Shown here piece by piece: positions 35,508-50,062 of a DNA stretch of 50,062 nt. Made by a program: the position numbers and the translations under genes. Position 1 is the first letter of the stretch. Every line of letters begins with the position of its first letter. This DNA is from Oscillospiraceae bacterium. Its GTDB lineage: Bacteria; Bacillota; Clostridia; Oscillospirales; Oscillospiraceae. The notes below the pieces were generated by a model. It did no database searches and was not told where the DNA came from. It saw only the letters and a program-made list of their open reading frames with translations. The stretch spans positions 1-50,062 of the forward strand of contig JAFTXW010000010.1 in the NCBI GenBank assembly GCA_017461445.1, read 5' to 3'.

Positions 35508-36180
35508 CACTCGACGGAACATACACATCTACGGAACTTTTTTATTCCCTAAACATTTTCGTTCGTCGATTCGACAAAAAACAGGGTGTTGAAGCAGCCC
35601 ACCCCAATACGCATACAGGGGTCGATGTAGGCATCCTCACCTACCAGGTTGCAACAACGAAAAGTTTATGCACTGGTGCGGCAGCACCCAAGGCTCCCTT
35701 GTGTAAAGGGAGCTGTCGGCGAAGCCGACTGAGGGATTGTTACCGCAGTATCGATATCTTTATGGCTACCAGGAAAAAGCACATAACGAAAGCTTACAAC
35801 GGATTCGCCGAAAGGTTTCAGCAAAATGGTGCTGCCTACCGCACAATCCCTCCGACCCGCCTTCGGCGGCCCACCTCAGCGCAAGGCACTCCCTTCGGTC
35901 GCCTTTACACAAGGGAGGCTTTGGTGCGCTGCATCTCTTCAAGATTTTTCAAGTTTCAGCTGTTACATTCTACTACGAGTCATACCACTATGATGGTTTT
36001 GCTGGGTTAAGCCAATCAGCATTCTTAAAATAAACAGACACCACCTTGCAGTATTATCGATTTTGATCTCCATCCTGAATATGACACGGGTGCACAAGGA
36101 TGCGCCATCATCGTAATTTTTGTCGAATCCACAAACGAAAATGTTTGAGGAATGAAAAAGTTCCGTAGAAGCGTCGAGTG
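35508..36180. mobile_element. 673-bp element with imperfect terminal inverted repeats, no transposase
   Basis: The two ends are inverted copies over about 65-73 bp: both read CACTCGACG, then CTACGGAACTTTTT, AAACATTTTCGTT and GATTCGACAAAAA inwards. The left end has an 11-bp insertion. No transposase remains; short open frames over both ends (reading STELF.S.NIFV..FDK) are accidental products of the repeat. No target duplication is obvious. A second palindrome (35677-35934) is nested inside. It fills the space between asnS and the purine permease gene and looks like a MITE or other non-autonomous element. Confidence 0.65.
35677..35934. repeat. 258-bp palindromic repeat nested in the larger element
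   Basis: Inverted arms carry CTCCCTTGTGTAAAGG on the left and CCTTTACACAAGGGAG on the right. Inside are GAGGGATTGT (35731-35740) and ACAATCCCTC (35843-35852), and hairpins GTCGGC-GAA-GCCGAC and CCGCC-TTC-GGCGG. About 100 bp separate the arms. Confidence 0.7.
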
Positions 36181-36196
36181 CGTCGGGCGACAACGG

Positions 36197-36231
36197 CAAA
36201 AACACCCGGGGGAAATTTCCCTCGGGTGTTT
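36197..36231 (-). terminator. Rho-independent terminator of the purine permease gene
   Basis: On the minus strand ACACCCGAGGG, loop, CCCCCGGGTGT and TTTTTG, 12 bases after the stop. Confidence 0.88.
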
Positions 36232-36243
36232 GTGTTGGGTGGA

Positions 36244-37668
36244 TTACACAGCCAGGAAGAACTTGACCAGGAACAGTGCGGAGATGGCGTAGGTCAGGAC
36301 GGAAACCTCCTTGGCCTTGCCGGAGAAGATCTTCATGAAGGTGTAGATAATCATGCCCAGGCCGATGCCGTGGCCGATGGAGCCGGAGATGGGCATGGTC
36401 AGCAGCATGACGGCAACAGGCACCAGCTGGGTGTTGTCGCCAAAGTCGATGTTGCGCAGGCCGCCCAGCATCAGAACGCCAACGTAGATCAGCGCGGCGG
36501 AGGTAGCGGCGGCGGGGATCAGGGCCACCACGGGAGCCAGGAAGATGCAGGCCAGGAACAGCACAGCGGCAACCAGAGCGGTCAGGCCGGTGCGGCCGCC
36601 AGCTTCAACGCCGGAGGCGGACTCCACGAATGTGGTAACGGTGGAGGTGCCGGTCACTGCGCCGGCGATGGTGCCCACAGCGTCAGCGATCAGGGCTTCC
36701 TTCATGTTGGGCATATTGCCCTCGGCATCGGTCATGCCTGCACGGGAAGCGGTGCCCACCAGGGTGCCGATGGTATCGAACATGTCAATGATGCAGAAGG
36801 TGATGATCAGGGAAATGGCGGTGAACCACCCGATCTGCAGGAAGGCGGGGAAGTTCAGCTTGAACAGGGTCACCTCAGCCATGTCAGCCACAGGAGGAAT
36901 GAAGGACGCGCCAGCCAGGGAGGCGAAGGGGTTGGTGCCCAGGAACAGCAGCTGACCGGCCCAGTTGATGACGGAAGCCAGCAGCATGCCCCACAGGACG
37001 GAGCCCTTGACCTTCTTGTGATCCAGTGCCAGGATGGCGAAGAAGCCCACGAAGGTGGTGACAACGTTCAGGACCATCACGGAATAGCCGGAGCCCATGT
37101 TGGCCTGTGCCACGCTGGGGGTCAGTGCACCGAAGAAGTCACGCATCATGTAGAAGGGGCCGCCGGTCTCGGAGTAGACACCTGCGTTGGAGCCGAAGCC
37201 GATGTTCAGCAGCATCAGGCCGATGGCGGGAGAAATGCCCAGACGGATGCCCAGGGGGATGGCGTGAACGATCTTCTCACGGACATTCAGGACGGACAGT
37301 GCCAGGAACACGACGCCCTCTACCAGGATGATGACCAGTGCACCCTGGAAGCTCTCCAGATAGCTCATGCCGGTAGCGGCGGCCAGGTTGGCGACCACAA
37401 CAGCGAAGAAGCTGTTCAGGCCCATGCCGGGAGCCATAACGAAGGGCTTGTTGGCATGGAAAGCCATCCATGCGGTACCAATGGCGGAAGCGATGCAGGT
37501 GGCCATGAACACGCCGTTCCACAGGGGGCTGCCGCTATCGAAATTGGTCAGCAGGTTGGGGTTCAGGGCGATGATGTAGGCCATGGTCATGAAGGTGGTC
37601 AGACCTGCCACGATCTCAGTCTTCGCGCTGGTGCCGTTGTCGGAGAGTTTGAAAACTTTCTCTAACAT
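36244..37668 (-). CDS. AzgA-type purine (adenine/guanine/hypoxanthine) permease
   Basis: The 474-residue NCS2 transporter has about 12-14 membrane segments. Family signatures are GLTTFMTMAYIIALNP at the N-terminus, APGMGLNSFFA, FCIIDMFDTIGTLVGTA and the TSTVTTFVESASGVEAGGRTGLT block. AzgA members import purine bases with protons. The length is normal. No purine riboswitch could be recognised in the 130-base leader. A weak promoter (TTTATA-17-TAGAAT, minus strand, 37725-37753) is possible. It stands alone between two repeat-bearing gaps. Confidence 0.92.
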   Translation of the reverse strand: MLEKVFKLSDNGTSAKTEIVAGLTTFMTMAYIIALNPNLLTNFDSGSPLWNGVFMATCIASAIGTAWMAFHANKPFVMAPGMGLNSFFAVVVANLAAATGMSYLESFQGALVIILVEGVVFLALSVLNVREKIVHAIPLGIRLGISPAIGLMLLNIGFGSNAGVYSETGGPFYMMRDFFGALTPSVAQANMGSGYSVMVLNVVTTFVGFFAILALDHKKVKGSVLWGMLLASVINWAGQLLFLGTNPFASLAGASFIPPVADMAEVTLFKLNFPAFLQIGWFTAISLIITFCIIDMFDTIGTLVGTASRAGMTDAEGNMPNMKEALIADAVGTIAGAVTGTSTVTTFVESASGVEAGGRTGLTALVAAVLFLACIFLAPVVALIPAAATSAALIYVGVLMLGGLRNIDFGDNTQLVPVAVMLLTMPISGSIGHGIGLGMIIYTFMKIFSGKAKEVSVLTYAISALFLVKFFLAV

Positions 37669-37812
37669 ATTATCTTACCTTTCTTTCATAAATTCCGGAA
37701 AATCCGGTAAAAAAGGACAGGTTCATTCTATCATGTTACGCAAAGTTTATAAATTCGCAGACAAGCCAAATTTATGAATTTTTTGTGACGGTTTTTTGTG
37801 TTTTTGACAACA

Positions 37813-37860
37813 AAATACCTGTCATTCCCAGCAGGCCGCAGGCGTGCCGGGAATGACAGG
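37813..37860 (-). terminator. Hairpin after the M28 peptidase gene, terminator or repeat
   Basis: CCTGTCATTCCC and GGGAATGACAGG form a perfect 12-bp stem, extended by partly paired inner bases. On the minus strand it is followed by TATTTTG. The ends share CTGTCATYCC with the 112-bp palindrome at 11622-11733, so it may be a short member of the same family. Confidence 0.7.
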
Positions 37861-37869
37861 GGATGTATA

Positions 37870-39090
37870 TTACTTGGGGGCACGCTTGCGGCAGAGGTAC
37901 TGGTCCAGCTTGTCCTTCATATTGTCGGGCATTTCCCGGGCCACAGGGCAGCGGACGGCATTGGCCATGCGGTTGGTAAAGGCCACCAGGAAATCGATAT
38001 CCTGGGCCATCTGCTCGCCCTTCATCAGGGCCAGCGTATCGTAGCTGTTGTGGATGGTGGCTGTGTTGTTGGGAGCAATGCGGGCAAAGGAAACGGCGGG
38101 CACACCCTTGTCGGCAAAGGGGGTGGAGTCGCTGGAATACACATCCTGCCGCCCGTCGATGCCGAAGCCCAGCTCAGAGGCCATGTAGCTAATGTAGTGG
38201 CACAGCTTTTCCTCGGCGGTGGCGCAGTAGATGAACTTGCCCATGATGCAGCCGATCATGTCCAGGTTGATGTTCAGCACGCAGTCCTTCAGGGCTTCCT
38301 GATCCTCGCAGTAAGCCTTGGAGCCCAGCAGGCCCCGCTCCTCGCTGCCGCACCAGATAAAGCGCAGGCCATAACGGTGGGGGTTCTTTGCGAAATGCTC
38401 AGCGATGCCCAGCAGGCCCACGGAGCCGGACATATTATCATACGCGCCCTGGGACAAAGAGGTGGAGTCATAGTGGGCTGTCAGGGCGATGTACTGCGGA
38501 ATCTCGCCGGGCAGGTCCAGGATCACGTTGTGGGAATTGCCGGTATACTCCTCCTGCTTCAGAACGATTTTGGCAGTGGTCACGCCCTTGCGGATCAGCT
38601 CGATGGCAGACTTGGCGTTGATATTCACGCCGGGAATGCGGCTGCCCTTGTGGACATAGCTGCGCAGCTCCCGCTGGTCGATGTCCTCGTCCACATAATT
38701 GGCGTTGCCGTCGTAAGTAACAAAGCCCACCGCGCCGTTTTCCAGAAGGTCCTGATAAATCCAGTAGCCCAGGTAGCCGTCCACCATGACGATCTTGCCC
38801 CTGCACTGGCTGAGAGACCAGGGGTCCTTACTCCGCAGATAATAGAAGGGTGCCTCCACTTCTCCGCTTCCGGCGCACAGATACCCCTTGCAGGCAATGC
38901 TGACCCCGTCCGCCTGGAAAACGGCTTCTTCCAGATTGGACATGGGCACCTCAAAGGGAACGATCTTTGCCTCTCCAAAGGCCGCAGCCCTGTCCCGGAT
39001 GTACTCCGCAGCCCTCAGCTCCTCGGCACTGCCGCCCATGCGGACATAAGCGGTGTCCTCGAAAATCTTCATAATGTCTTGTGCGTTCAT
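37870..39090 (-). CDS. M28 family zinc aminopeptidase
   Basis: The 406-residue enzyme carries a full two-zinc site: LTAHYDST (His, Asp), AYDNMSGSVG (bridging Asp), GSEERGLLGS (Glu-Glu), INLDMIG (Asp) and TIHNSYDT (His). A PA-type insert (about residues 75-165, GKIVMVDGYLGYW...NGAVGFVTYDG) precedes the catalytic domain. There is no signal peptide, unlike most M28 enzymes with a PA domain, so it should act on peptides in the cytosol. It lies just downstream of the opp operon on the same strand, separated by the oppA terminator. Confidence 0.92.
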   Translation of the reverse strand: MNAQDIMKIFEDTAYVRMGGSAEELRAAEYIRDRAAAFGEAKIVPFEVPMSNLEEAVFQADGVSIACKGYLCAGSGEVEAPFYYLRSKDPWSLSQCRGKIVMVDGYLGYWIYQDLLENGAVGFVTYDGNANYVDEDIDQRELRSYVHKGSRIPGVNINAKSAIELIRKGVTTAKIVLKQEEYTGNSHNVILDLPGEIPQYIALTAHYDSTSLSQGAYDNMSGSVGLLGIAEHFAKNPHRYGLRFIWCGSEERGLLGSKAYCEDQEALKDCVLNINLDMIGCIMGKFIYCATAEEKLCHYISYMASELGFGIDGRQDVYSSDSTPFADKGVPAVSFARIAPNNTATIHNSYDTLALMKGEQMAQDIDFLVAFTNRMANAVRCPVAREMPDNMKDKLDQYLCRKRAPK

Positions 39091-39148
39091 AGGTTACCTC
39101 CTGTTGGTTTTTCCCCATTTTACCGCATTTCACGGCAGGATGCAAGAT

Positions 39149-39184
39149 AAAAATGCCCCCCAGCCTCTATTGAAGCCAGGGGGC
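39149..39184 (-). terminator. Rho-independent terminator of the opp operon
   Basis: On the minus strand GCCCCCTGGC and GCTGGGGGGC, with two G-T pairs, followed by ATTTTTATC. It lies 28 bases after the oppA stop. Confidence 0.8.
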
Positions 39185-39212
39185 GGATAAGTTAGGGAAT
39201 ATCAGTCAGGAA

Positions 39213-41036
39213 TCAAGCTTCGGGCAGCAGGGGCTCGTTGATGTTCCAGCAGACATAGTAGGTACCGATCTGGCCGGCGATGACGAACTCGTCAGCGTAC
39301 TCAGCCTTCAGGGTAGCGATTTCGTTGACGGGCACGTCGTCGATCAGCAGCCACTCGCCGTTCTTGAAGTTGGTCAGCATGTTATTGGCGTCGTCGGACA
39401 GGTAGCACTTCAGCTCGTTCATGGTGACGGAATCAGCGTCGTGGTAGTTCTCGTTCTTGGTCAGAGTAATGACGGAGTTGTGCTCCCAGCCGGTCATGGT
39501 GTAGGCACCGTTGGAAACGTAGGTAGCGGGGTCGGTTGCCCAAGCCTCGTTGGCAACCACATCCTCACGGACGGGGAAGTAGGTGGGGAATGCCAGCAGC
39601 TCGTTCCAGTAGGAGATGGCGTTGTTCAGAGTGACCTGCAGGGTCTTCTCGTCCAGAGCCTCAACAGCCAGCTTGGCATCCTCAGCGGGATTCTCAGCCC
39701 AGATGTCGTTGTAGCCCTTGACGACCTCGAACATGTAGCCGTAGTCAGCAGCCAGCTCCACGGAAGCGGCACGCTGCCATGCGAAAGCGAAGTCATAAGC
39801 GGTCAGATCAACACCGTCGGACCACTTCAGGCCGTCCTTCAGGGTGTAGGTGTAGGTGACGGTGCCGTCCTCGTTGACAACACCCTCAGGCAGCTCAACA
39901 GCGCAGTCGGGAACGATGACCAGGTTGCCGTTCTCATCGGTGCCCCACTTTGCCAGACCGGCGAACAGGTGGGAAATCATGGTTGCGCCGTCCACAGCGG
40001 AGTTCAGAGCGGGATCCAGGGTGTCGGGCTCGGAAGCCAGGCAGACAGAGATGGACTCGCCGCTGCCGTTAACAGTGGTGTTCTGGAAATACTTGTAGCC
40101 CAGGGGGTTGGAGTAGAAGCCCTCGACGGAATCGTCGACCATGTACAGGTCAGTGTAGAAGTACAGGGGCACGATGCAGCCGGAATCCATCAGCATATCC
40201 TCAGCGATGTGCATCATGGCGTAGCGGGCGTCGCTGTCGGTGCAGGACTTGATGGAGGCGATCAGAACATCGTAGGTCTCAGCCCAGGTGCCGTCCTCGA
40301 CCTTGACATCATAGCCGTAAGCAGTCAGATCCAGATCGTAAGCAGCCATGGAAGCGTGATCGCCCTTGCCGAACTGAACGTCGTTGTTGCCGGAGGTGGT
40401 GGTCCACATATCCAGGAAGCAGATGGGATCGTTGTAGTCAGCCAGCCAGCCGTTACGGGCGATGGAGTAATCGCCGTTCTTACGGGTGTTCAGGAAGGTG
40501 TTCCACTCCTGGTTCTCCAGGTTCATGGTGATGCCCACAGCAGCCAGAGCGGACTGCAGGTACTCACCGATAGCCTTGTGGGAATCGGAGGTGTTGTACA
40601 GGTAGGTCAGAGTGGGGAAGTTGGTGAACATACCGTTCTCGTCGACCTCGTAGTACTTGGACAGGATAGCGTAGGCCTCAGCGTAGTTATCCTCGTAAGC
40701 CTCGGCAGCCACGTTGTAGTAGCCGTCGTACTCGTCGGAATCGCCGGCGTTCTTGTAGAACTCGGAGCCATCGGCGTCGGTCATACCCATGGCAACAAAG
40801 GAGGAAGCGGCGACCTGGCCGCCCTGTGCGATCTGCTCGACGATGTAGTTACGGTCGAACAGCAGGCCCAGTGCGTAGCGGATCTCGGCCTCAGCAGCGA
40901 CGGTGTCGATGGGAGCCTCAGTAGCTTCGGTAGCTTCAGAAGCAGCGGTAGAAGGGGTGGTCTCGGAGGTGCTGCCGCAGGCAGCCAGAGACAGAACCAT
41001 AACAGCAGCCAGAAGCAGAGCAATCAGTTTCTTCAT
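39213..41036 (-). CDS. oppA: Oligopeptide-binding lipoprotein, apparently circularly permuted
   Basis: The 607-residue protein is the family 5 extracellular binding protein of the importer. Residues 1-20 are a lipoprotein signal (LSLAAC, lipid on Cys20), then an STE-rich linker. The order of the fold is reversed: residues 47-320 (EIRYALGLLFDRNYIVEQ...GWLADYNDPICFLDMW...GFYSNPLGYKYF) match the usual C-terminal half, and 327-607 (ESISVCLASEPDTLDPA...DGLKWSDGVDLTAYDFAFAWQR...YYVCWNINEPLLPEA) the N-terminal half. Joining the end to residue 50 restores the normal order. The frame is open throughout and a ribosome binding site (AAAGGAAAATG) precedes the ATG. It could be a true permutation or an assembly artefact. 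Confidence 0.9.
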   Translation of the reverse strand: MKKLIALLLAAVMVLSLAACGSTSETTPSTAASEATEATEAPIDTVAAEAEIRYALGLLFDRNYIVEQIAQGGQVAASSFVAMGMTDADGSEFYKNAGDSDEYDGYYNVAAEAYEDNYAEAYAILSKYYEVDENGMFTNFPTLTYLYNTSDSHKAIGEYLQSALAAVGITMNLENQEWNTFLNTRKNGDYSIARNGWLADYNDPICFLDMWTTTSGNNDVQFGKGDHASMAAYDLDLTAYGYDVKVEDGTWAETYDVLIASIKSCTDSDARYAMMHIAEDMLMDSGCIVPLYFYTDLYMVDDSVEGFYSNPLGYKYFQNTTVNGSGESISVCLASEPDTLDPALNSAVDGATMISHLFAGLAKWGTDENGNLVIVPDCAVELPEGVVNEDGTVTYTYTLKDGLKWSDGVDLTAYDFAFAWQRAASVELAADYGYMFEVVKGYNDIWAENPAEDAKLAVEALDEKTLQVTLNNAISYWNELLAFPTYFPVREDVVANEAWATDPATYVSNGAYTMTGWEHNSVITLTKNENYHDADSVTMNELKCYLSDDANNMLTNFKNGEWLLIDDVPVNEIATLKAEYADEFVIAGQIGTYYVCWNINEPLLPEA

Positions 41037-41122
41037 TTTCTCATTTTCCTTTCACAGAATTACTTTTTATCCATAATTCGCAGTTCAAAACGGCATTTGA
41101 GCATACGAATGATGAAACGGCT

Positions 41123-42103
41123 TTAATTGAACTTCTCCATATTGTGGCAGGCCACGAAATGTCCGGAGGAGACCTCCTTGAATTCGGGCATGCTCTCGGC
41201 GCAGGCAGCCGTCGCGTAGGGGCAGCGGGTGCGGAAGGGGCAGCCGGAGGGAGCGTTCAGGGGGCTGGGGATATCGCCATGGAGCACGATGCGCTTGTTC
41301 TCTCTTGCCTTCTTGGGGTCGGGCAGAGGAACGGCAGACATCAGGCACTTGGTATACGGATGCAGGGGGTGGTCGTAGATCTCCCTGGCATCGGCCATTT
41401 CCACCATCTTGCCCAGATACATAACGGCGATCCGGTCGGAAATGTGCCGGACGACCAGCAGATCGTGGGCAATGAACAGGTAGGTCAGGCCCATCTGATT
41501 CTGCAGCTCATCGAACATATTGATAACCTGCGCCTGGATGGAAACGTCCAGCGCGGAGACTGGCTCGTCACAGACCACGAACTCGGGGCCCATAGCCAGA
41601 GAGCGGGCAATGCCGATACGCTGCCGCTGACCGCCGGAGAATTCGTGGGCATAGCGGTTGGCGTGCTCGGAGTTCAGGCCGACCTTCGCCATCAGATCCA
41701 GGATTTTCTCCTGTCGCTCGGCCTTGCTGGCGTACAGCTTGTGGACATCCAGGGGCTCGCCGATGATGTCGGAAACGGTCATTCTGGGGTTCAGAGAGGA
41801 ATAGGGATCCTGGAATACCATAGCGGTTTTTTTCCGGTACTCCAGAATGTCCTGCTTGGTAACGATCTGCTTTCCGTTGAACCAGATCTCGCCCTCTGTG
41901 GGCTTATACAGGTGCAGCAGGGTTCTGCCGACGGTGGTCTTGCCGCAGCCGGATTCGCCTACCAGGCCCAGGGTTTCACCCTTGCGGATGGCAAAGGAAA
42001 CGTCATCCACCGCCTTCAGGGGCTTGGAGGAAAAGAGGCCGGTATTGATCTGGAAGTATTCCTTCAGATGTTTGACTTCCACCAGGTTCTGCTGTTCGGT
42101 CAT
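41123..42103 (-). CDS. oppF: Oligopeptide ABC transporter ATP-binding protein OppF
   Basis: The 326-residue ATPase has Walker A GESGCGKT, signature [12 protein letters not shown], Walker [13 protein letters not shown] and the C-terminal peptide-transporter extension with [10 protein letters not shown], whose Cys cluster can bind iron-sulfur in relatives. With OppD it powers import. Its start overlaps the oppD stop by four bases; oppA follows after 86 bases. Confidence 0.95.
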
Positions 42104-43095
42104 TCCGCGTCACCGCCTTCCTTTTCAAAGGCTTCCTTCACATTCATCCAGCAGGCCGCCTGGTGCCAGTCGTTGATCTGCATCCGTTCGCACCGCTGGC
42201 GCATACAGATCTTCATGGCCGCGTCGCACCGGGGCGCGAAGGGGCAGCCCTGGGGCATATTCAGCAGGTCAATGGGTGTGCCGGAGATGGGTTCCAGGGG
42301 GCTGTCGTCATTGTCCACCGTGGGGATGGAGCGCATCAGGCCCTTGGTATACTCGTGCTTGGGGTTGTAGAAGATCTCGTCGGCACTGCCCTGCTCACAA
42401 ATGGAGCCGGCATACATGACGATGACCTCGTCACACATCTGGGCCACAACACCCAAGTCATGGGTGATCATAATGATGGCCATGCCCAGTTCCTTCTGGA
42501 GGGACTGCATCAGCTCCAGGATCTGGGCCTGAATGGTCACATCCAGAGCGGTGGTGGGCTCGTCGGCGATCAGGATATCCGGCTCACAGGCCAGTGCCAT
42601 GGCAATCATAACACGCTGGCGCATACCGCCGGAGAACTCGAAGGGATACTGCTTCATGCGCTTTTCCGGCTCGTTCACATTGACGAGGCGGAGCATTTCC
42701 ACAGCCCGGTCGTAGGCCTGCTTCTTGTTCCGGGGAGTATGGAGCATGATGGCCTCCATCAGCTGGTGGCCGATGGTGTAGGTGGGATTCAGGGAGGTCA
42801 TGGGGTCCTGGAAGATGATGGAGATCTTGTTGCCGCGGATGGTCTTCATGACCTTCTCACCGGCACCCACCAGCTCCTGACCGTCAAACTTGATGGAACC
42901 GCCCACGATCCTGCCGGTCTTTTCCAGAATCTGCATGATGGAGTAAGCGGTAACGGACTTGCCGGAACCGGATTCGCCAACGATGCCCAGAACCTTTCCG
43001 TGATCCAGGAAAAAGGAAACGCCGTTGACGGCCTTCACTTCACCCGCGGGAGTAAAGAAGGAGGTACGCAGGTCTCTAACTTCTAACAATGCCAT
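42100..43095 (-). CDS. oppD: Oligopeptide ABC transporter ATP-binding protein OppD
   Basis: The 331-residue ATPase has Walker A GESGSGKS, signature [12 protein letters not shown], Walker [14 protein letters not shown] and the C-terminal CPFAPRC motif. The N-terminus ([26 protein letters not shown]) is typical of OppD. It lies 13 bases after oppC. Confidence 0.95.
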
Positions 43096-43108
43096 ATCTG
43101 CCGCCTCC

Positions 43109-44167
43109 TTAATTCTTCAGCTTGGGGTCAAAGGCATCCCGCAGGCCGTCACCAAACAGGTTCAGGGACAGCACGATCAGGCTGATGACCACAGCGGGGA
43201 TGATAAGACGATAGGCGTAAGTGGTGTAGCCATTCAGCGCGTCGGAAGCCAGCGAACCCAGGGAGGGCATGGGAGCATTGACGCCCAGGCCCAGGAAGGA
43301 CAGGTAGCTTTCGGTGAAAATGGCACTGGGAATCTGCAGAGCGGTGGAGATAATGACCACGCTGATGCAGTTGGGAAGCAGATGCTTGCGGATGATCCAG
43401 CCTGCCTTGGCACCGGTGGCCCGGGCTGCCAGAACATACTCCTGCTCCCGCAGGGACAGGATCTGGCCTCGGATCAGCCGGGCCATGGAGACCCAGTACA
43501 GCAGGCCGAACACGATGAACAGGGAAATCATGTTGCTTCCCAGCTTTTCCAGGACTGTACCCTCCAAGGCGGGGCCCAGTGTGACCTTCATGACGGAAGC
43601 CAACAGGATGACCATCAGGGTATCGGGCAGGGAGTAAATGATATCCACGATGCGCATGATAATGATATCCACCTTGCCGCCGATGTAGCCCGCAAGGGAG
43701 CCGACGGTCATGCCGATGATCAGCACGATGATGCTGGCAAAGAAACCGACGGACAGGGAGATGCGGGTACCATAGACCACACGGATGAAGTAGTCACGGC
43801 CCTGGGAATCGGTACCGAAAATATGAGGGAACACCTTTTCACCCGCCGCGATCTTCTCCTGCTCCGTCTCGCCGTATTCAAAGGGAGCCAGATTGTTGTA
43901 GGATGGATCCATGGGCTTACCGGGCGTATTGCCCAGCATTTTGTCGTACTTGTAGGGCCAGAAATAGGGCAGGAAAATGGATGCCAAGGAGATGACGATA
44001 ATCAGGAACATACTGAGGGCGGCGATCTTGTTCTTCAGCAGCCGCTTCATGCCATCCTTAAAGAAGGTGGTAGAGGGCCGCATCTGTACCATATAAGCCT
44101 TTTCTTCCTCAGATGCCGGGAGGAAATCCTCCACATCCACATGCATGGAGAAGATTTTCTTTTTCAT
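43109..44167 (-). CDS. oppC: Oligopeptide ABC transporter permease OppC
   Basis: The 352-residue permease has an N-terminal cytosolic stretch of about 45 residues, six membrane helices and the EAA loop ATGAKAGWIIRKHLLPN that docks onto the ATPases. A periplasm-facing loop of about 60 residues follows helix 1 (YFWPYKYDKML...DSQGRDYF), as in other OppC proteins. It lies 11 bases after oppB. Confidence 0.95.
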   Translation of the reverse strand: MKKKIFSMHVDVEDFLPASEEEKAYMVQMRPSTTFFKDGMKRLLKNKIAALSMFLIIVISLASIFLPYFWPYKYDKMLGNTPGKPMDPSYNNLAPFEYGETEQEKIAAGEKVFPHIFGTDSQGRDYFIRVVYGTRISLSVGFFASIIVLIIGMTVGSLAGYIGGKVDIIIMRIVDIIYSLPDTLMVILLASVMKVTLGPALEGTVLEKLGSNMISLFIVFGLLYWVSMARLIRGQILSLREQEYVLAARATGAKAGWIIRKHLLPNCISVVIISTALQIPSAIFTESYLSFLGLGVNAPMPSLGSLASDALNGYTTYAYRLIIPAVVISLIVLSLNLFGDGLRDAFDPKLKN

Positions 44168-44178
44168 GGGTAATCTCC

Positions 44179-45108
44179 TTATTCCAGGGTGATTCTGGGA
44201 TCCACGACCTTATAGAGGATATCGCTTACCAGATTCATCAGAACGATCAGGCAGGCCAGCACAATGGTGGTGCCCATGATCAGGGGGTAGTCACGGTTGG
44301 TGATGCTGCTGACGAAGGCTCTGCCAATGCCGGGCACGGCGAAGATCTGCTCCACCACCAGGGAACCGGTGACGATGTAGGCCAGCATGGGGCCGAAGTA
44401 GGTGATGACAGGGATCAGGGAGTTCTTCAGCGCGTGGCCGAAGATCACCTTCGCAGGAGACACGCCCTTGGCTCTTGCGGTCCGGATGTAATCCTGCCCC
44501 AGCACATCCAGCATGGAGGAGCGGGTCAGACGGGTGATATAAGCCATGGGATACAGGGACAGGGTAATGATGGGCAGCACCAAGCCCTCGGCGGTGGAGC
44601 CGTTGGCGGGAAAAATCTGCCAGTGGATGGTAAACAGGATCAGAAGCAGCGTGCCCATAATAAAGGAGGGCATGGAAACAAAGGCAGTGGTGATGACCAT
44701 GATGATCTTGTCGATCAGCTTATTGCGCCGCAGTGCCGCCACAGCACCCAAAACGATGCCGCTGCCCAGCGCGATAAAGGCAGCGATCAGACCCAGCTTT
44801 ACAGAGGTCTTCATGCCGTCGGCAATCACATCGATGACCATGCGGCCTCTCAGCTTGATGGAAGGACCAAAATCCAGCTTGGTAACGATATCCTTCAGGT
44901 AAGTAAAATACTGCTCCATGACCGGCTTATCCAGGCCGTATTTGGCTTCCAGTGCAGCCTGGGCGGCTTCACTGACCGCCTTTTCCGCCATGAAGGGACC
45001 GCCGGGAACAGCGCGCATGACAAAGAATGTCACGGTTATGACGACCCAAACCGTCAGCGCGGCCAAGGCAACACGCTTGAGAATGTACATCAGATTTTTG
45101 GTGTTCAT
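44179..45108 (-). CDS. oppB: Oligopeptide ABC transporter permease OppB
   Basis: The 309-residue permease has six membrane helices and the EAA loop ARAKGVSPAKVIFGHALKN. The N-terminus YILKRVALAALTVWVVITVTFFVMRAVPGGPF is classical OppB. I chose the ATG at 45108, after GGAAGAGG; an in-frame GTG 18 bases upstream lacks such a site. It is the first gene of oppBCDFA; a strong promoter lies 180 bases upstream and the leader carries two hairpins. Confidence 0.94.
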   Translation of the reverse strand: MNTKNLMYILKRVALAALTVWVVITVTFFVMRAVPGGPFMAEKAVSEAAQAALEAKYGLDKPVMEQYFTYLKDIVTKLDFGPSIKLRGRMVIDVIADGMKTSVKLGLIAAFIALGSGIVLGAVAALRRNKLIDKIIMVITTAFVSMPSFIMGTLLLILFTIHWQIFPANGSTAEGLVLPIITLSLYPMAYITRLTRSSMLDVLGQDYIRTARAKGVSPAKVIFGHALKNSLIPVITYFGPMLAYIVTGSLVVEQIFAVPGIGRAFVSSITNRDYPLIMGTTIVLACLIVLMNLVSDILYKVVDPRITLE

Positions 45109-45137
45109 TGACCTCTTCCTTTCCACAGAGAACTGTC

Positions 45138-45156
45138 ATGCTTCTTTCAGAAGCAT
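45138..45156. promoter_or_regulatory. Hairpin in the opp leader
   Basis: ATGCTTCT-TTC-AGAAGCAT, an 8-bp perfect stem, lies about 30 bases before the oppB start, next to the palindrome at 45158-45175. Confidence 0.6.
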
Positions 45157-45157
45157 G

Positions 45158-45175
45158 AAGCGGGATATCCCGCTT
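45158..45175. promoter_or_regulatory. Perfect 18-bp palindrome in the opp leader
   Basis: AAGCGGGATATCCCGCTT is fully self-complementary without a loop, which suits a dimeric DNA-binding protein better than an RNA hairpin. It lies about 100 bases downstream of the opp -10 element. Confidence 0.6.
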
Positions 45176-45284
45176 GGCTTATTTGTTTTTCCGGAAAAGC
45201 AATGTATGCGTCATTCATCCATTTACCGAATTTTCGGCCCTGTTTTTATGCATAATTCCAGCTTGGTTCGGAAATTTGATTCAG

Positions 45285-45313
45285 ATTATAATACAATCGA
45301 AAGTCATTTTCAA
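45285..45313 (-). promoter_or_regulatory. Promoter of the oppBCDFA operon
   Basis: On the minus strand TTGAAA, a 17-bp spacer and a perfect TATAAT. It gives a leader of about 170 bases. Confidence 0.8.
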
Positions 45314-45429
45314 CATTTTAAATATATGAATAATTTGTGAAATCCATTTCCTTTTTTGTGACTTTTGTACACAGACACTTGTCCGTATCGCAAAACACAT
45401 GCTATTCAAGACTTTTGGCTCGCCAAAAA

Positions 45430-45800
45430 CAGGCCAAATCCGCACCTTACCCGTCACATTGAACAAAACGCCTCCCGTTTCCCTCCCCCGGCCTGTTGCC
45501 CTTCCACGAGGAAAAGCCCTTCGGCAGTTCCGAGGATACTTATGATTTTTACAGAGACACTTGTGCAGTTTTGCATTGAGCTCCATCAGCTGTTCCTCGG
45601 TCACTGGGATGTGCAGCATGCCCGTCAGCAGATCATCCGCAGTACACTCTGGGAAACCAGAACACCAACCGCTCTGGGATCGGCAGTCTGCCCCAGCAGA
45701 GGTCTGAGCAGTTCACAGGTCTTTTCCATTCCCGCGCTGGCAATCACCGATCTCAGTTTGGTATTCAGACTGCAGCAGAGGTCAATGATCTTTCAACTGT
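45430..45800 (-). pseudogene. Possible decayed gene fragment, unknown
   Basis: On the minus strand three short stretches in different frames look protein-like in succession: ASAGMEKTCELLRPLLGQ to VSQSVLRMIC (ending 45625), DDLLTGMLHIPVTEEQLMEL and KIISILGTAEGLFLVEGQQA. Two frameshifts would join them into one piece of about 100 residues. I recognise no family, and chance cannot be excluded. Confidence 0.25.
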
Positions 45801-45851
45801 ATTTTGGCAAGATGCTGCCATTTGAGGAGAACCACTTTCGGAAAAACATAT

Positions 45852-45881
45852 CCCCGACTGAACAAGCAGTCGGGGACTTTT
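45852..45881 (+). terminator. Terminator-like hairpin in the opp/MATE gap
   Basis: TCCCCGACTG, a 6-nt loop, CAGTCGGGGA and CTTTT. No intact plus-strand gene lies before it, so it may be left from a lost gene. Confidence 0.55.
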
Positions 45882-46153
45882 GCGGTCTGTGGAAGCAAAA
45901 CAATTTCGTGGGTTGGCGATATTGCCATATGTTGTGTGGCCTTTTCTATACAGGAGCCACAGTATACGCTTGCCGCACCGGAAATGTATTATTCATCGAT
46001 GGAAGCATAACAGGCTTGCGCTTTTTTCATACTACCGCATTTGGAAAGTATCAGCAATCCCATTTTTCAATTGACGAACCTTTTCGGAGTAGAATTTCAA
46101 TGACAAGGGCAAATCGATATACGAAGCAAGGGGCTGTTTTTTATAGCCCCTTC

Positions 46154-47485
46154 TTAAACATGTTCCGCCCATTTTCCCTTGCGGTAGAACACCAAAGACA
46201 AGCCTGTTCCGACCGCCCAGCCGATTGGCCATGCGCACCAGATTCCGGTTGCGCCCAAAGCCGTTGCGGACAGCATGTATGCCAACGCCACCCGGAGGAT
46301 AAGATCCGAGAAGGTGGAGATCATAAACTGCCGCATCTGTCCGGCCCCCCGAAGGACACCATCTGCCACCAGCTTGACGGATACCACGAAATAGAACGGG
46401 GACAGGATACGCAGAAACACAATACCGGTGTTCAGTGCCAGCTCCGTTGGTTCCTCCAGGAAGAAGCCCATCAGGCCCCTGCCCCAGATGAAATACAGCA
46501 GCAGGATCGGCACGCACAGCAGCCATACCAGCTTTAATCCGGCCCCAAAGCCCGCCTTCACCCGGTCCCACTTCCCAGCTCCGATGTTCTGGGCGGCAAA
46601 GTTGGAAATGCCGTTTCCAAGGGTTGTGAAGGACGTGATCACCAGATTGTTCAGCTTCACCGCTGCGGAGTAGCCTGCCATCACGTCGGTACCGAAGCCG
46701 TTGATGACGCTCTGGAGGATAATATTGCCGACGGAAACGAAGCTCTGCTGCAAGGTGCTGGGCACCGCGATCACAATAAACCGCTTCAGCAGTTCCCCGG
46801 AGAACACCTGAACTTTCCCCTCTGCGTGAATTTTCCGAAGCCGCAGCATTACGACTGCTACCGCAAGAACGCAGCTAACACCCTGGCACAGGAAAGTCGC
46901 CCAGGCGACACCGGCCACGCCCATATCAAAGGCTTCCACAAACAGGATATCCATACCGATATTGCTCAGCGAAGACACCGCAAGAAAAGCAAAGGGTGTC
47001 CTGCTATCACCTAAGGCAGAGAAGATACCTGTGGCAATGTTATAGAAGAATACGAAGGGCAGGCCCCAGACATAAATATCCAGATACAGCTTGGAGTCAG
47101 AAAACACTTCCTCCGGGGTGTTGATCAGCTCCAGCAGACCATCGCAGCCCAGCAAGCCCACGAGCATCAGGCACAGGCAAACAAAGCCGCTGGTGAGAAT
47201 CGATGTGTAGACTGCTGTTTTCATTTTCCCATATTCCTTCGCGCCAAACAGCTGTGAAACTACCACAGAACACCCCATGTTGCAGCCAAAGGCAAAGGCA
47301 ATGAAAATCAGCGTGATCTCGTAGCTGTTGCCCACCGCCGCCAACGCGTTCTGGCTGATGAACTTACCTGCCACCCAGCTGTCCGCAATATTATAGAGCT
47401 GCTGGAAAATAATGCTTCCAAACAGCGGCAGGCAGAACTGCCAAAGTACCGTGCTGGGCTTTCCCACTGTCAAATCCTTATTCAC
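46154..47485 (-). CDS. MATE family multidrug/metabolite exporter
   Basis: The product, about 443 residues, has twelve hydrophobic segments in two halves. Family blocks are the N-terminal LPLFGSIIFQQLYNIADSWVAGKFI and the second-half TLQQSFVSVGNIILQSVINGFG and ISNFAAQNIGAGKWDRVKAGF. MATE proteins expel drugs or metabolites in exchange for Na+ or H+. The start is uncertain: GTG at 47485 follows AAGGTGG at suitable distance and gives VNKDLTVGKP, as in relatives; a GTG at 47494 is the alternative. It is divergent from a LysR gene whose product probably regulates both. Confidence 0.9.
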   Translation of the reverse strand: MNKDLTVGKPSTVLWQFCLPLFGSIIFQQLYNIADSWVAGKFISQNALAAVGNSYEITLIFIAFAFGCNMGCSVVVSQLFGAKEYGKMKTAVYTSILTSGFVCLCLMLVGLLGCDGLLELINTPEEVFSDSKLYLDIYVWGLPFVFFYNIATGIFSALGDSRTPFAFLAVSSLSNIGMDILFVEAFDMGVAGVAWATFLCQGVSCVLAVAVVMLRLRKIHAEGKVQVFSGELLKRFIVIAVPSTLQQSFVSVGNIILQSVINGFGTDVMAGYSAAVKLNNLVITSFTTLGNGISNFAAQNIGAGKWDRVKAGFGAGLKLVWLLCVPILLLYFIWGRGLMGFFLEEPTELALNTGIVFLRILSPFYFVVSVKLVADGVLRGAGQMRQFMISTFSDLILRVALAYMLSATALGATGIWCAWPIGWAVGTGLSLVFYRKGKWAEHV

Positions 47486-47520
47486 GAAAACCACCTTACC
47501 TATTTTTATTCATCCGGTGC

Positions 47521-47549
47521 ATTATACCCCTTGACAGCAGGAAAAGTAA
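47521..47549 (-). promoter_or_regulatory. Probable promoter of the MATE gene
   Basis: On the minus strand a perfect TATAAT (47521-47526) is preceded at 17 bp by a poor -35 (TTACTT). The weak -35 fits activator dependence. It overlaps the lysR promoter. Confidence 0.5.
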
Positions 47550-47559
47550 AATGTATAGT
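47531..47559 (+). promoter_or_regulatory. Promoter of the lysR-type gene
   Basis: A perfect TTGACA, a 17-bp spacer and TATAGT, 45 bases upstream of the ATG. Confidence 0.75.
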
Positions 47560-47560
47560 T

Positions 47561-47579
47561 GAGATAGCATCCATATCTC
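47561..47579. promoter_or_regulatory. Probable LysR-family operator
   Basis: GAGATA, a 7-bp centre and TATCTC form an inverted repeat of the LysR type just downstream of the lysR -10 element, where binding would repress its own gene. Confidence 0.55.
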
Positions 47580-47603
47580 TGCGACATAGTTGAAGGTGAT
47601 CTC

Positions 47604-48527
47604 ATGCATATCAACCTGGATTCCTACCGGGTGTTCTATTATGTGGCCCAGTACCGCAGCTTCACCAAGGCTGCTCAAATGCTGTACAGCAATCAGCCCA
47701 ATGTGACCCGGACTATCAAAAATCTGGAGCAGACGTTGGGCTGTACCCTCTTTATCCGCACCAGCCGCAGCGTTCAGCTTACCCCGGAGGGGGAGGAGCT
47801 TTTTTCCCACATTGCCCCCGCCATGCAGCAGATCAAAGCCGGAGAGGAATCGGTGCTGCTTCACAGCAAGCTCCAGGGCGGCACCATCAGCATCGGTGTC
47901 AGCGAGATCGCGCTGCATCAGGTGCTTCTGCCTGTCCTGGAAAGATTCCGCCAGGAATATCCGGGTATCCGTCTGCGGATTTTCAACTCCAATTCCCAGC
48001 AGGCAGTTTCCGCATTAAAAAACAGGCTGGTGGATTTCGCCCTGATCACCCCGCCCATTGCGGAATCCGATGTGTTCCTTCGGACGGATGTTGCCGCATT
48101 CCAGGAGGTTCCAGTCTGCGGGAGAGCTTATGAATATTTGGCAGAACAGCCCCTGACCTGGGAACATCTGGCGTTTCTTCCCATCATCAGCCTATGCAAA
48201 GGCACCTCGACCCATCAGCTTTACACGGACTGGTTCCGGGCGCATGATTTGACTTTCGTCCCGGACATTGAAGCGGCTACTGCTGACCAAATTCTTCCCA
48301 TGGTTCGCGCGAATCTGGGAATTGGCTTTATCCCAGAGCAGGCTGCGAGGGAAGCCGCCGCAGACGGCAGCATTACGGTTTTACAGCCACAGGAAAAGCC
48401 CCCGGAGCGAACCATTTCCCTGCTGAAACGGAAGGATATGCCCCTGAGTGTCGCGGCAGCGGAGCTGGAACGGATGCTGTTTCAGCACAGCGCAGCAAAT
48501 ACAAAGGATGGTGGCATAAATGGATAG
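47604..48527 (+). CDS. LysR-family transcriptional regulator
   Basis: The 307-residue protein has an N-terminal winged helix-turn-helix (residues 1-60: YRSFTKAAQMLYSNQPNVTRTIKNLEQTLGCTLFIRTSRSVQLTPEGEELF) and a C-terminal substrate-binding domain of two lobes (from about 90). It should sense a small molecule and act as a tetramer. It is divergent from the MATE exporter gene with 118 bases between; that pairing suggests control of export by the exported compound. Confidence 0.93.
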   Translation: MHINLDSYRVFYYVAQYRSFTKAAQMLYSNQPNVTRTIKNLEQTLGCTLFIRTSRSVQLTPEGEELFSHIAPAMQQIKAGEESVLLHSKLQGGTISIGVSEIALHQVLLPVLERFRQEYPGIRLRIFNSNSQQAVSALKNRLVDFALITPPIAESDVFLRTDVAAFQEVPVCGRAYEYLAEQPLTWEHLAFLPIISLCKGTSTHQLYTDWFRAHDLTFVPDIEAATADQILPMVRANLGIGFIPEQAAREAAADGSITVLQPQEKPPERTISLLKRKDMPLSVAAAELERMLFQHSAANTKDGGING

Positions 48528-48577
48528 TCTCAGCCATTTTCGTGACCCCTTTCAATTTAGTATGTATGACAGCTTGC

Positions 48578-48613
48578 TATTACAAAGTTTATTACAATGT
48601 TTATTACAAACTG
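48578..48613. repeat. Three tandem 12-bp repeats
   Basis: TATTACAAAGTT, TATTACAATGTT and TATTACAAACTG follow directly on each other, sharing TATTACAA at a 12-bp period. Confidence 0.7.
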
Positions 48614-48703
48614 AGGGGGACTGGTTAACACTAATAGTACCACACATCGGGGTGTTGGTCGAACAGTTGTTTAGTTATTGTGCAAATTTTGTGAAAATAA
48701 TAA

Positions 48704-48734
48704 CAAAAATGCCGCCCTTTCGGACGACATTTTG
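48704..48734 (-). terminator. Terminator on the minus strand, probably for the metallophosphoesterase gene
   Basis: On the minus strand AAAATGTCGTCC and GGGCGGCATTTT pair through two G-T pairs, followed by TTGTTATT. In the plus-strand RNA the same positions would be mismatched, so the direction is minus. It lies 246 bases after the nearest stop on that strand. Confidence 0.6.
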
Positions 48735-48979
48735 TGCAAAAGTGTGTTATTTACCCAATTTAGATATTTTCAAATAGTCCGTTGACGGGAGTTTCCGAGA
48801 AAACATATAATTTTACTAATTATTTTCCGATTTTTATTCGACACATTTTTCGGTGTTTTTCAAACTTTTTGAGCATTATTTATTTTCTAAGATTTTCCAA
48901 CCAAGGAAGCACTCGTATGCCTTTTCTGCATTTAATTATAGCATACTATTCCCTCTTTGTACAGAGGGTATTTAATCTT

Positions 48980-49663
48980 TTATACATAAATTTCATTCAT
49001 GTCATCTAATCTAATGCAAGCTAATGCCTTGATTGGTATATCGTATCCGCAGCCGCAGTCCAGGTTTACGAACCCCGGAGTATGTAGTATCTCCAAATGT
49101 TCACCCTTATCTTCGACCTCCATTGCATAGGCTATACGCTTTTCTTCCGGCTGGATCATACTCAGGACTTTCGTGTGACCGATGATCAGTCTACAATCCG
49201 GAATAGGATTCTCCGACTCCATGGTCGGCCGGGTCCATACTTCGTCGTGAACATTATCGCCAGGGAATCCATGCACCATGTAGTACCGACTGCCGTTAAC
49301 CTCCAACTCCAAGTGTGTGGGTCTTGTCCCCAGATATGTTCTTATCCGCCGCTGTACTTTTGCCTTCTGCTTCAGATAGGCAGCCAGTGTCGGTGCATTG
49401 CCATTTCGGCTCCATCTGCGGATCTCCGTACTGGTCGCATCCGGACTGAGATACTGCAGCATCATATGTTCGTGATTACCCAACAGCATAATTACATTGG
49501 GCATCTCCATGATTTCCAGAAGCAGGGCGATTCCATCCGGCCCCCGGTCAATCACATCACCCAGCAGGATTAGAGTATCTTCTTCTGAGAAGCGAATCTT
49601 CTCTAACATCGCATGGAAGCGGTCTGCTTCACCATGGATGTCTCCCATGACATAGTGTGCCAT
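48980..49663 (-). CDS. Metallophosphoesterase (bacterial PPP-type Ser/Thr phosphatase-like)
   Basis: The 227-residue protein carries the metal-binding motifs of the PPP family: GDIHG (7-11), GDVIDRG, GNHEHMM and later VHGFPGD. Relatives include PrpE, Ap4A hydrolase and lambda-type protein phosphatases; the substrate cannot be told. I chose the ATG at 49663, following AAAGGAGGTG, since it puts MAHYVMGDIHGE at the N-terminus as in the family; an upstream ATG at 49798 would run through the preceding gene. The preceding DUF1016-N gene overlaps its start by 61 bases, so the two are probably one operon. Confidence 0.9.
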   Translation of the reverse strand: MAHYVMGDIHGEADRFHAMLEKIRFSEEDTLILLGDVIDRGPDGIALLLEIMEMPNVIMLLGNHEHMMLQYLSPDATSTEIRRWSRNGNAPTLAAYLKQKAKVQRRIRTYLGTRPTHLELEVNGSRYYMVHGFPGDNVHDEVWTRPTMESENPIPDCRLIIGHTKVLSMIQPEEKRIAYAMEVEDKGEHLEILHTPGFVNLDCGCGYDIPIKALACIRLDDMNEIYV

Positions 49664-50062
49664 CGTCGCCCACCTCCTTTCCAAATCAGCCACCACTTTC
49701 GGATTATCCGAATTGCCTGGAGGACTGCATTCTTGATTACAACAGGCATTTTCTTCAGGGGCTCTGCCTGCTTTTCTTCTTGCTCCACAATATAGCACAC
49801 TTCTTCCTCAATAGCGAGAACAATGTTTTCGTGTGCGTTGGCTGCGATATTAGCAATCAGCTCAGTCTTGGACCAGCCAAACTGCTCCGCCGCATTCATA
49901 TACCATTCCCGCAGATCCATAGTCAGCTCTGCTTCCATGATCACTACATTCTGAATCCACCCTAGCTTCATTGCACGAGACAGCAGAACAGGATGGTTTT
50001 CGTAAGTACGGTAAAAGTCCCGCATTCTGCGCAGGCTCCGGGGAGAGAAACCTTTCACATCC
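49603..50062 (-). CDS. DUF1016 N-terminal domain protein, 5' end beyond the window
   Basis: The visible 150 or so residues contain the DUF1016/YhcG N-terminal pattern: FSPRSLRRMRDFYRTY, then WIQNVVIMEAELTMDLREWYMNAAEQFGWSKTELIANI. In YhcG this helical domain precedes a PD-(D/E)XK nuclease domain. Here a short cationic segment (PVVIKNAVLQAIRIIRKWWLIWK) follows instead, and the frame ends inside the metallophosphoesterase gene, so the nuclease domain is missing. The frame is still open at the window edge (GDVKGF), so the start at the GTG near 50058 is probably not the true one. Confidence 0.75.
   Translation of the reverse strand, partial: DVKGFSPRSLRRMRDFYRTYENHPVLLSRAMKLGWIQNVVIMEAELTMDLREWYMNAAEQFGWSKTELIANIAANAHENIVLAIEEEVCYIVEQEEKQAEPLKKMPVVIKNAVLQAIRIIRKWWLIWKGGGRRWHTMSWETSMVKQTASMRC

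Follow-up and report, generated by a model that had tools for sequence, protein, structure and literature searches.

An oppA-like gene in a bacterium of the Oscillospiraceae raises the question of whether an oligopeptide-binding protein can be encoded with its halves in reversed order and still serve as the receptor of its transporter. The gene occupies positions 39213..41036 (minus strand, stop included; 607 aa) of a stretch of 50,062 nucleotides, the whole of which we refer to as the window. A preliminary description of this DNA had claimed that the two halves stand in reversed order, that the signal peptide was kept at the front and that nothing is missing or duplicated. Most of the natural circular permutations known so far link distant pairs, and the steps between them have been lost. 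Here we describe the gene and its operon, and follow the order of its halves through its relatives.

Results

A family 5 binding protein in swapped order

The order encoded by the window gene, signal–C half–N half, is referred to as P1; the parts that follow all lie on the minus strand. The frame opens with a signal peptide, judged by eye, and a lipobox with the predicted lipid-anchor residue Cys20 (residues 1–20; 40977..41036), so that the signal does stand at the front as had been claimed. A low-complexity linker (residues 21–46; 40899..40976) leads into the C half, which by homology comprises lobe 2 or domain III and the last strands of domain I (residues 47–320; 40077..40898) and contains W197 and D200. 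The old C terminus is connected to the old N terminus by a new joint of 6 aa (residues 321–326; 40059..40076), followed by the N half, assigned by homology to domains I and II (residues 327–607; 39216..40058). The new C terminus is located in the hinge loop between the lobes. On the plus strand, an antisense open frame of 561 aa (39441–41126) covers most of the gene and is probably a by-product of codon usage.

When the window protein was searched against the PDB using phmmer, entry 8are, which we take to be Bacillus subtilis OppA, was matched with a whole-sequence E value of 6.8e-60. Residues 328–580 aligned to positions 21–270 of this entry, residues 43–221 to positions 292–451 and residues 258–320 to positions 460–522. 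SBP_bac_5, the only Pfam family above its own cut-off, scored 201.6 bits (cut-off, 32.4) and also matched as two stretches in swapped order, the best of which was residues 387–603 (profile positions 12–212). After rotation, the window protein and L096, a natural protein of canonical order, could be aligned over the full length and were identical at 449 of 584 aligned positions; without rotation, 231 of 321 aligned residues were identical. The front half thus matches the C-terminal half of the family in both the PDB alignment and the rotated alignment, and the proposed reversal is borne out. That nothing is missing or duplicated holds for the two halves, which are complete, but not to the letter, as the hinge loop falls about 9 residues short of that of L096 and the 6-residue joint is new.

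The protein shares both halves, a lipoprotein signal, an opp operon and the pocket Trp and Asp with canonical family 5 (cluster C) proteins such as 8are, 1b05 and 8ay0, the latter two being presumably OppA and DppE, and its Pfam score places it in the same family. It differs from them in the order of the halves, with the hinge loop opened and the old termini joined. Rotated blocks, one joint, one cut and relatives in unrotated order identify it as a natural circular permutant. The protein is not filed as OppA sensu stricto: it scored 197.9 against the OppA equivalog NCBIfam NF011684 (cut-off, 947), and canonical L096 likewise stayed below the cut-off, at 219.2. Nor does it belong with TpMglB-2 (Type Ic / Cluster Bc, among the Type I sugar binders), as no Pfam family other than SBP_bac_5 exceeded its cut-off.

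The permuted gene is the final gene of an oppB-oppC-oppD-oppF-oppA operon, in which it is preceded on the same strand by an oppB-like permease (44179..45126), an oppC-like permease (43109..44167), an oppD-like ATPase (42100..43095) and an oppF-like ATPase (41123..42103). By pattern matching, a terminator-like hairpin of 13 pairs with a T tail was found just 3′ of the stop (39155..39184, minus strand), and a sigma-70-like promoter match (11/12) upstream of oppB (45285..45313, minus strand), a weak match in a region with fewer matches than its shuffles. An Rfam scan of 36000–50062 returned nothing at gathering scores. Directly downstream of the operon terminator lies a gene for a peptidase of family M28 (37870–39090, minus strand), which would fit peptide use.

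Three circular permutations in one operon slot

Among genomes of relatives, 9 of 40 matched at E ≤ 1e-40; P1 was present at full length in G000 and five other genomes of the genus (68–83% identity), with a canonical gene in G009 and a fragment in G015. Wider searches matched 148 of 400 genomes of the family (E ≤ 1e-30) and 91 of 391 at the level of the class (E ≤ 1e-50). Of 389 candidate stretches in a named genome collection, 377 code for a relative, and the best 80 of the 377 were retained. All 30 class-level loci that were typed proved canonical, 11 of them on contigs of 1.7–5.1 Mb, and the canonical order is taken as ancestral.

We typed 154 loci, duplicates included, with a single script on the basis of the order of the two halves, which gave 64 canonical, 36 P1, 22 P2, 21 P3 and 11 unresolved loci. 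P2 and P3 are two more circular permutations of the same protein, beyond the one noted in the preliminary description. Ten loci were re-assigned by hand (L038, L041, L057, L058 and L085 to P2; L135, L139 and L143 to P3; L047 and L069 to P1). Separately, L191, which the script had wrongly typed as P2, is the P1 gene of L067 together with the remnant of a neighbouring binding protein. After 16 duplicates, 9 short rows and 2 untyped rows were dropped, 127 rows remained: 51 canonical, 29 P1, 25 P2 and 22 P3. The gene for oppF lies directly upstream in 115 of these (26/29 P1, 25/25 P2, 19/22 P3 and 45/51 canonical).

Further searches extended the range of the permuted forms. A P2 query matched 49 of 394 genomes of the order (E ≤ 1e-40), and a P3 query matched 7 of 110 nearly complete genomes of the family (E ≤ 1e-120), three with P3 and four with canonical genes. 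Another 20 loci from the order search comprised 4 P3, 2 P1 and 14 canonical genes, one of the last without a match to the last block. P1 was confirmed in families f1, f4 and f19, P2 in f10, f16 and f19, and P3 in f1, f10, f20 and f26. One genome of the order carries three consecutive family 5 genes, each with the N half before the C half (L258:326–5969). Elsewhere, a 1,424-aa open frame on a 5.2-kb metagenome-assembled genome (MAG) contig (L092:474–4748) has a canonical family 5 protein in mid-frame (SBP_bac_5 at 487–901), flanked by long parts with no Pfam match at E ≤ 1e-5.

The three forms are cut at different points. The P1 cut opens the hinge loop that connects the lobes; P2 has the order signal–C2–N–C1, with a cut near window residues 130–140; and P3 is cut between window residues ~225 and ~250. 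Every cut among the typed loci is in the C half or at its start, and none is in the N half. The joint of the old termini measures 5–6 aa in the 29 P1 and 25 P2 rows and 4 or 6 aa in the 22 P3 rows, in keeping with the close termini that the excerpted text of PMC10924461 describes for oligopeptide-binding proteins. The hinge loop of L096 has 11 extra residues compared with B. subtilis OppA, and similar loops occur in the canonical relatives of P1 that were inspected; a long hinge loop, to go by these sequences, is likely to be a soft spot for cutting. In AliC, a domain-swapped dimer exchanges its lobes at an inter-lobe loop, given as 290–294 in the excerpted text of PMC11192437; the counterpart of window residue 601 is chain position 289 of AliC, in a numbering not reconciled with that of the paper.

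In the 26 P1 sequences compared, M1, K2 and the motif W197-x-x-D200 are invariant and C20 is present in at least 90%, and W552 and D555 are invariant across 22 P3 rows. These residues would correspond to W498 and D501 of AliD, which hold the peptide N terminus (PMC11192437, excerpted text); the match was made by spacing and by alignment of canonical L096 to 1b05 in place of AliD itself, and was counted in P1 and P3 rows.

A lipobox was matched in 26/29 P1, 25/25 P2, 17/22 P3 and 34/51 canonical rows, and the misses that were inspected are explained by open contig ends and starts set by the script. Among 34 canonical rows, the span between lipobox and fold varies from 9 to 104 aa, and one canonical protein (L078:4626–6701) has a very long low-complexity linker of PAEEAAPAEE repeats in this place. 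The median span, a rough measure set by alignment ends and with values down to −10, is 29.5 aa for P1, 27.5 for canonical (34 rows), 33 for P3 and 10 for P2 (25 rows).

Could the permuted forms have taken on a changed task, such as an altered docking to OppBC or an altered ligand, for which the new position of the anchor was selected? The anchor enters at another lobe, and the P2 span seems short beside the canonical one. The P1 and canonical spans are alike, however, the pocket Trp and Asp are kept, and the forms interchange among close relatives in the same operon. We consider a changed task unlikely and favour a receptor that works with the adjacent transporter as its canonical counterparts do.

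The order of the halves has changed repeatedly

Changes of order were counted on two trees, by counts that do not separate gain from loss. The SBP tree held 87 of the 127 rows, as near-copies, fragments, long branches and 18 of the 22 P3 rows had been removed by hand. The operon tree was built from OppB, OppC, OppD and OppF only, and thus without the rearranged gene, at loci where the four genes are all present (82 of 97 distinct rows, after removal of 15 near-copies), and was rooted on one canonical row. P2 formed one clade in both (98/96 and 98/97, respectively), as did P3 (100/100 in each); a first SBP tree in which P2 was split in two was replaced by the more careful tree with its single clade. 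In the SBP tree, P1 accounted for five changes, of which at least four are forced by starred branches, with a bootstrap that had not settled. The operon tree gave five changes of order, which is also the minimum forced by starred branches for canonical versus the rest: P3; P2; P1 in a clade of 21 rows, 19 of them P1; P1 in L067; and the canonical order of L096 and L176 inside the P1 clade. Most simply, these would represent P3, P2, P1 twice and one return to the normal order. Canonical genes of one genus (L205–L208) fall among the P3 rows, so a second origin or a reversion of P3 is possible.

L067 carries a P1 gene and is sister to a canonical gene in the SBP tree (100/98) and to canonical L162 in the operon tree (100/100). 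In 7 of 9 windows along the alignment, canonical sequences were the closest to its binding protein; of the two remaining windows, one covers the joint. At its front stands VEAENARAEIRNAI, which resembles the hinge loop of the canonical neighbours L073 and L119, whereas most P1 rows of the large clade read like MTAEEKALAEAEIR. Because its windows are nearest to canonical sequences and its front keeps the letters of a canonical hinge loop, L067 appears to be an independent P1 event. Behind the permuted gene (L067:6808–7377) lies the C-terminal part of a different family 5 protein, with no N half matched. This piece was considered as the relic of a second copy and rejected, since it shares 33% identity with L067 but 38–40% with L150 and L161, which makes it a different gene.

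Canonical L096 and L176 are sister to L023 within the P1 clade of the operon tree (100/100). Of the 12 windows compared for the binding protein of L096, 7 were closest to P1 and 5 to canonical sequences; the loop of this protein, LPAGSGLTGAEAEAAKAEIR, looks canonical. Windows over the hinge loop cannot serve as a fair comparison, because the P1 chains are interrupted there and do not align across it. By these comparisons, L096 and L176 may have returned to the normal order, may carry a partial replacement with canonical DNA or may point to further origins of P1; of these readings, a return would take the fewest steps.

The P1 distribution might alternatively be traced to one permutation, passed on with the gene or the operon by horizontal transfer, in place of repeated permutation. 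The same loop is always cut and the joint is of similar length throughout; the SBP tree leaves many branches unresolved, and the trees differ in places, L093 and L160 standing beside a P1 group in the SBP tree only. Yet L067 combines the P1 order with the operon, most of the binding protein and the front linker of a canonical clade, and P2 and P3 are different cuts anyway. In AU tests, for which the groups were defined after the trees had been inspected, a single P1 clade was rejected on the SBP (p = 0.003), as was a single clade of P1 and P2 (p = 0.007). On the operon (47 rows), the tests rejected a clade of all P1 rows (p = 1e-7) as well as a clade of P1 minus L067 that excludes L096 and L176 (p = 5e-5). 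With a single origin of P1 rejected on both data sets, we judge it improbable and hold to repeated permutation.

The permuted genes are conserved and under purifying selection

The preliminary description had left room for an artefact, in which relatives would show the normal order or the assembler would have collapsed neighbouring copies. Adjacent oppA copies that were collapsed or mis-joined into an apparent swap might be suspected, as the source genome is a draft (61 contigs, 4.28% contamination) and the named relatives are MAGs. Their record titles name MAGs or uncultured bacteria, in series such as RGIG, SUG, SIG, RUG, Tb.RUG and SRR bins; the same is true of every title among the named P1 and P2 records, and none of the permuted genes typed lies on a single-contig genome. 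Relatives, however, share the P1 order, besides the normal order and two further permutations: MAGs from several projects carry P1 with its frame intact at 67–83% identity, under contig names of two assembler styles (k141_ and NODE_). In the source genome no second close oppA copy was found, the other 12 listed matches lying within query residues 1–131 or showing 30% identity to the N half, and no long repeat was found at the breakpoints, where the best match is 81% over 31 nt. The ratio dN/dS was 0.09–0.31 among 7 P1 pairs and 0.05–0.32 in 20 close pairs of all forms, which indicates purifying selection. Conservation in relatives and breakpoints without a long repeat led us to reject an assembly artefact, to which we give almost no credence.

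Decay could be marked by an unusual order, but a degenerate or non-functional copy is scarcely conceivable for an open frame with a lipobox, a Trp and Asp invariant in 26 P1 rows, and low dN/dS among P1 pairs, which is the sole close oppA found in its genome and closes an intact opp operon.

Discussion

The best explanation, in which we have considerable confidence, is that the window gene codes for a working oligopeptide receptor with a lipid anchor that serves the adjacent OppBCDF importer, that this protein is a natural circular permutant and that its gene slot has been permuted repeatedly. The old N and C termini, side by side in domain I, would be linked by the 6-residue joint, with the new termini opened in the hinge loop between the lobes. 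The fold and the peptide pocket would be as in canonical OppA and peptides would be handed to OppBC, and the membrane anchor would enter at lobe 2 and not at domain I. Within one bacterial order, P1 (the hinge cut) would have arisen at least twice, and P2 and P3 (cuts in the C half) at least once each. The normal-order lineage inside the P1 clade would most simply be a return, perhaps helped by a canonical gene.

At the level of DNA, the most likely route would be an in-frame tandem duplication of the coding part, after which both ends were trimmed. P1, P2, P3 and the canonical form could all be trimmed from a single S-C-N-C intermediate. The preliminary description had proposed duplication followed by loss of the outer halves; this route would fit and is the one that we favour. 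A model of permutation by duplication is set out in the excerpted text of PMC3320104, which also treats DNA methyltransferases and saposin/swaposin as families with permutants. For methyltransferases, intermediates are documented there; here, no fused tandem or partly trimmed intermediate was seen among the 154 typed loci, duplicates included, and adjacent separate duplicates occur in L161. In this locus (L161:2110–5562), two complete canonical genes stand in tandem after oppF with stops between them, a natural tandem duplicate in the slot.

A stronger reading, which we regard as possible while leaning against it, is that the slot is a permutation hot spot. The gene would rotate and rotate back repeatedly, orthologues more than 75% identical would differ in order, and more rotations would lie outside the present sample. 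The cause would then be a property of the locus, such as the long hinge loop, the last place in the operon or neighbouring binding-protein copies available for recombination.

Permuted binding proteins are already known in other clusters. TpMglB-2 of Treponema pallidum, classed as 'Type Ic / Cluster Bc', is likewise a tethered binding protein with a natural circular permutation; it is a Type I, cluster B sugar binder with one permutation, and its moved part is 13% identical to EcMglB (PMC4990184, excerpted text), whereas here three permutations are found in cluster C among close orthologues. Circular permutation among bilobed binding proteins is also described for glycine-betaine- and molybdate-binding proteins and CysB in the CPSARST study; in its excerpted text (PMC2395249), these cases have less than 24% identity and were found by structure, whereas here identity exceeds 70% in the same operon slot. 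Permutation of a family 5 protein was not found among the matches listed for open-licence literature on permutation and binding proteins. The surprising part is the recurrence among close orthologues.

Canonical and permuted orthologues that are more than 70% identical and share one slot, together with three cut points, the L067 event and the apparent return in L096 and L176, offer material for direct tests. On such orthologues it can be tested how genes permute, whether intermediates are needed and whether the order of the chain has any bearing on folding, anchoring and transport. They also carry a warning, in that annotation or alignment that depends on order will miss or misplace permuted proteins.
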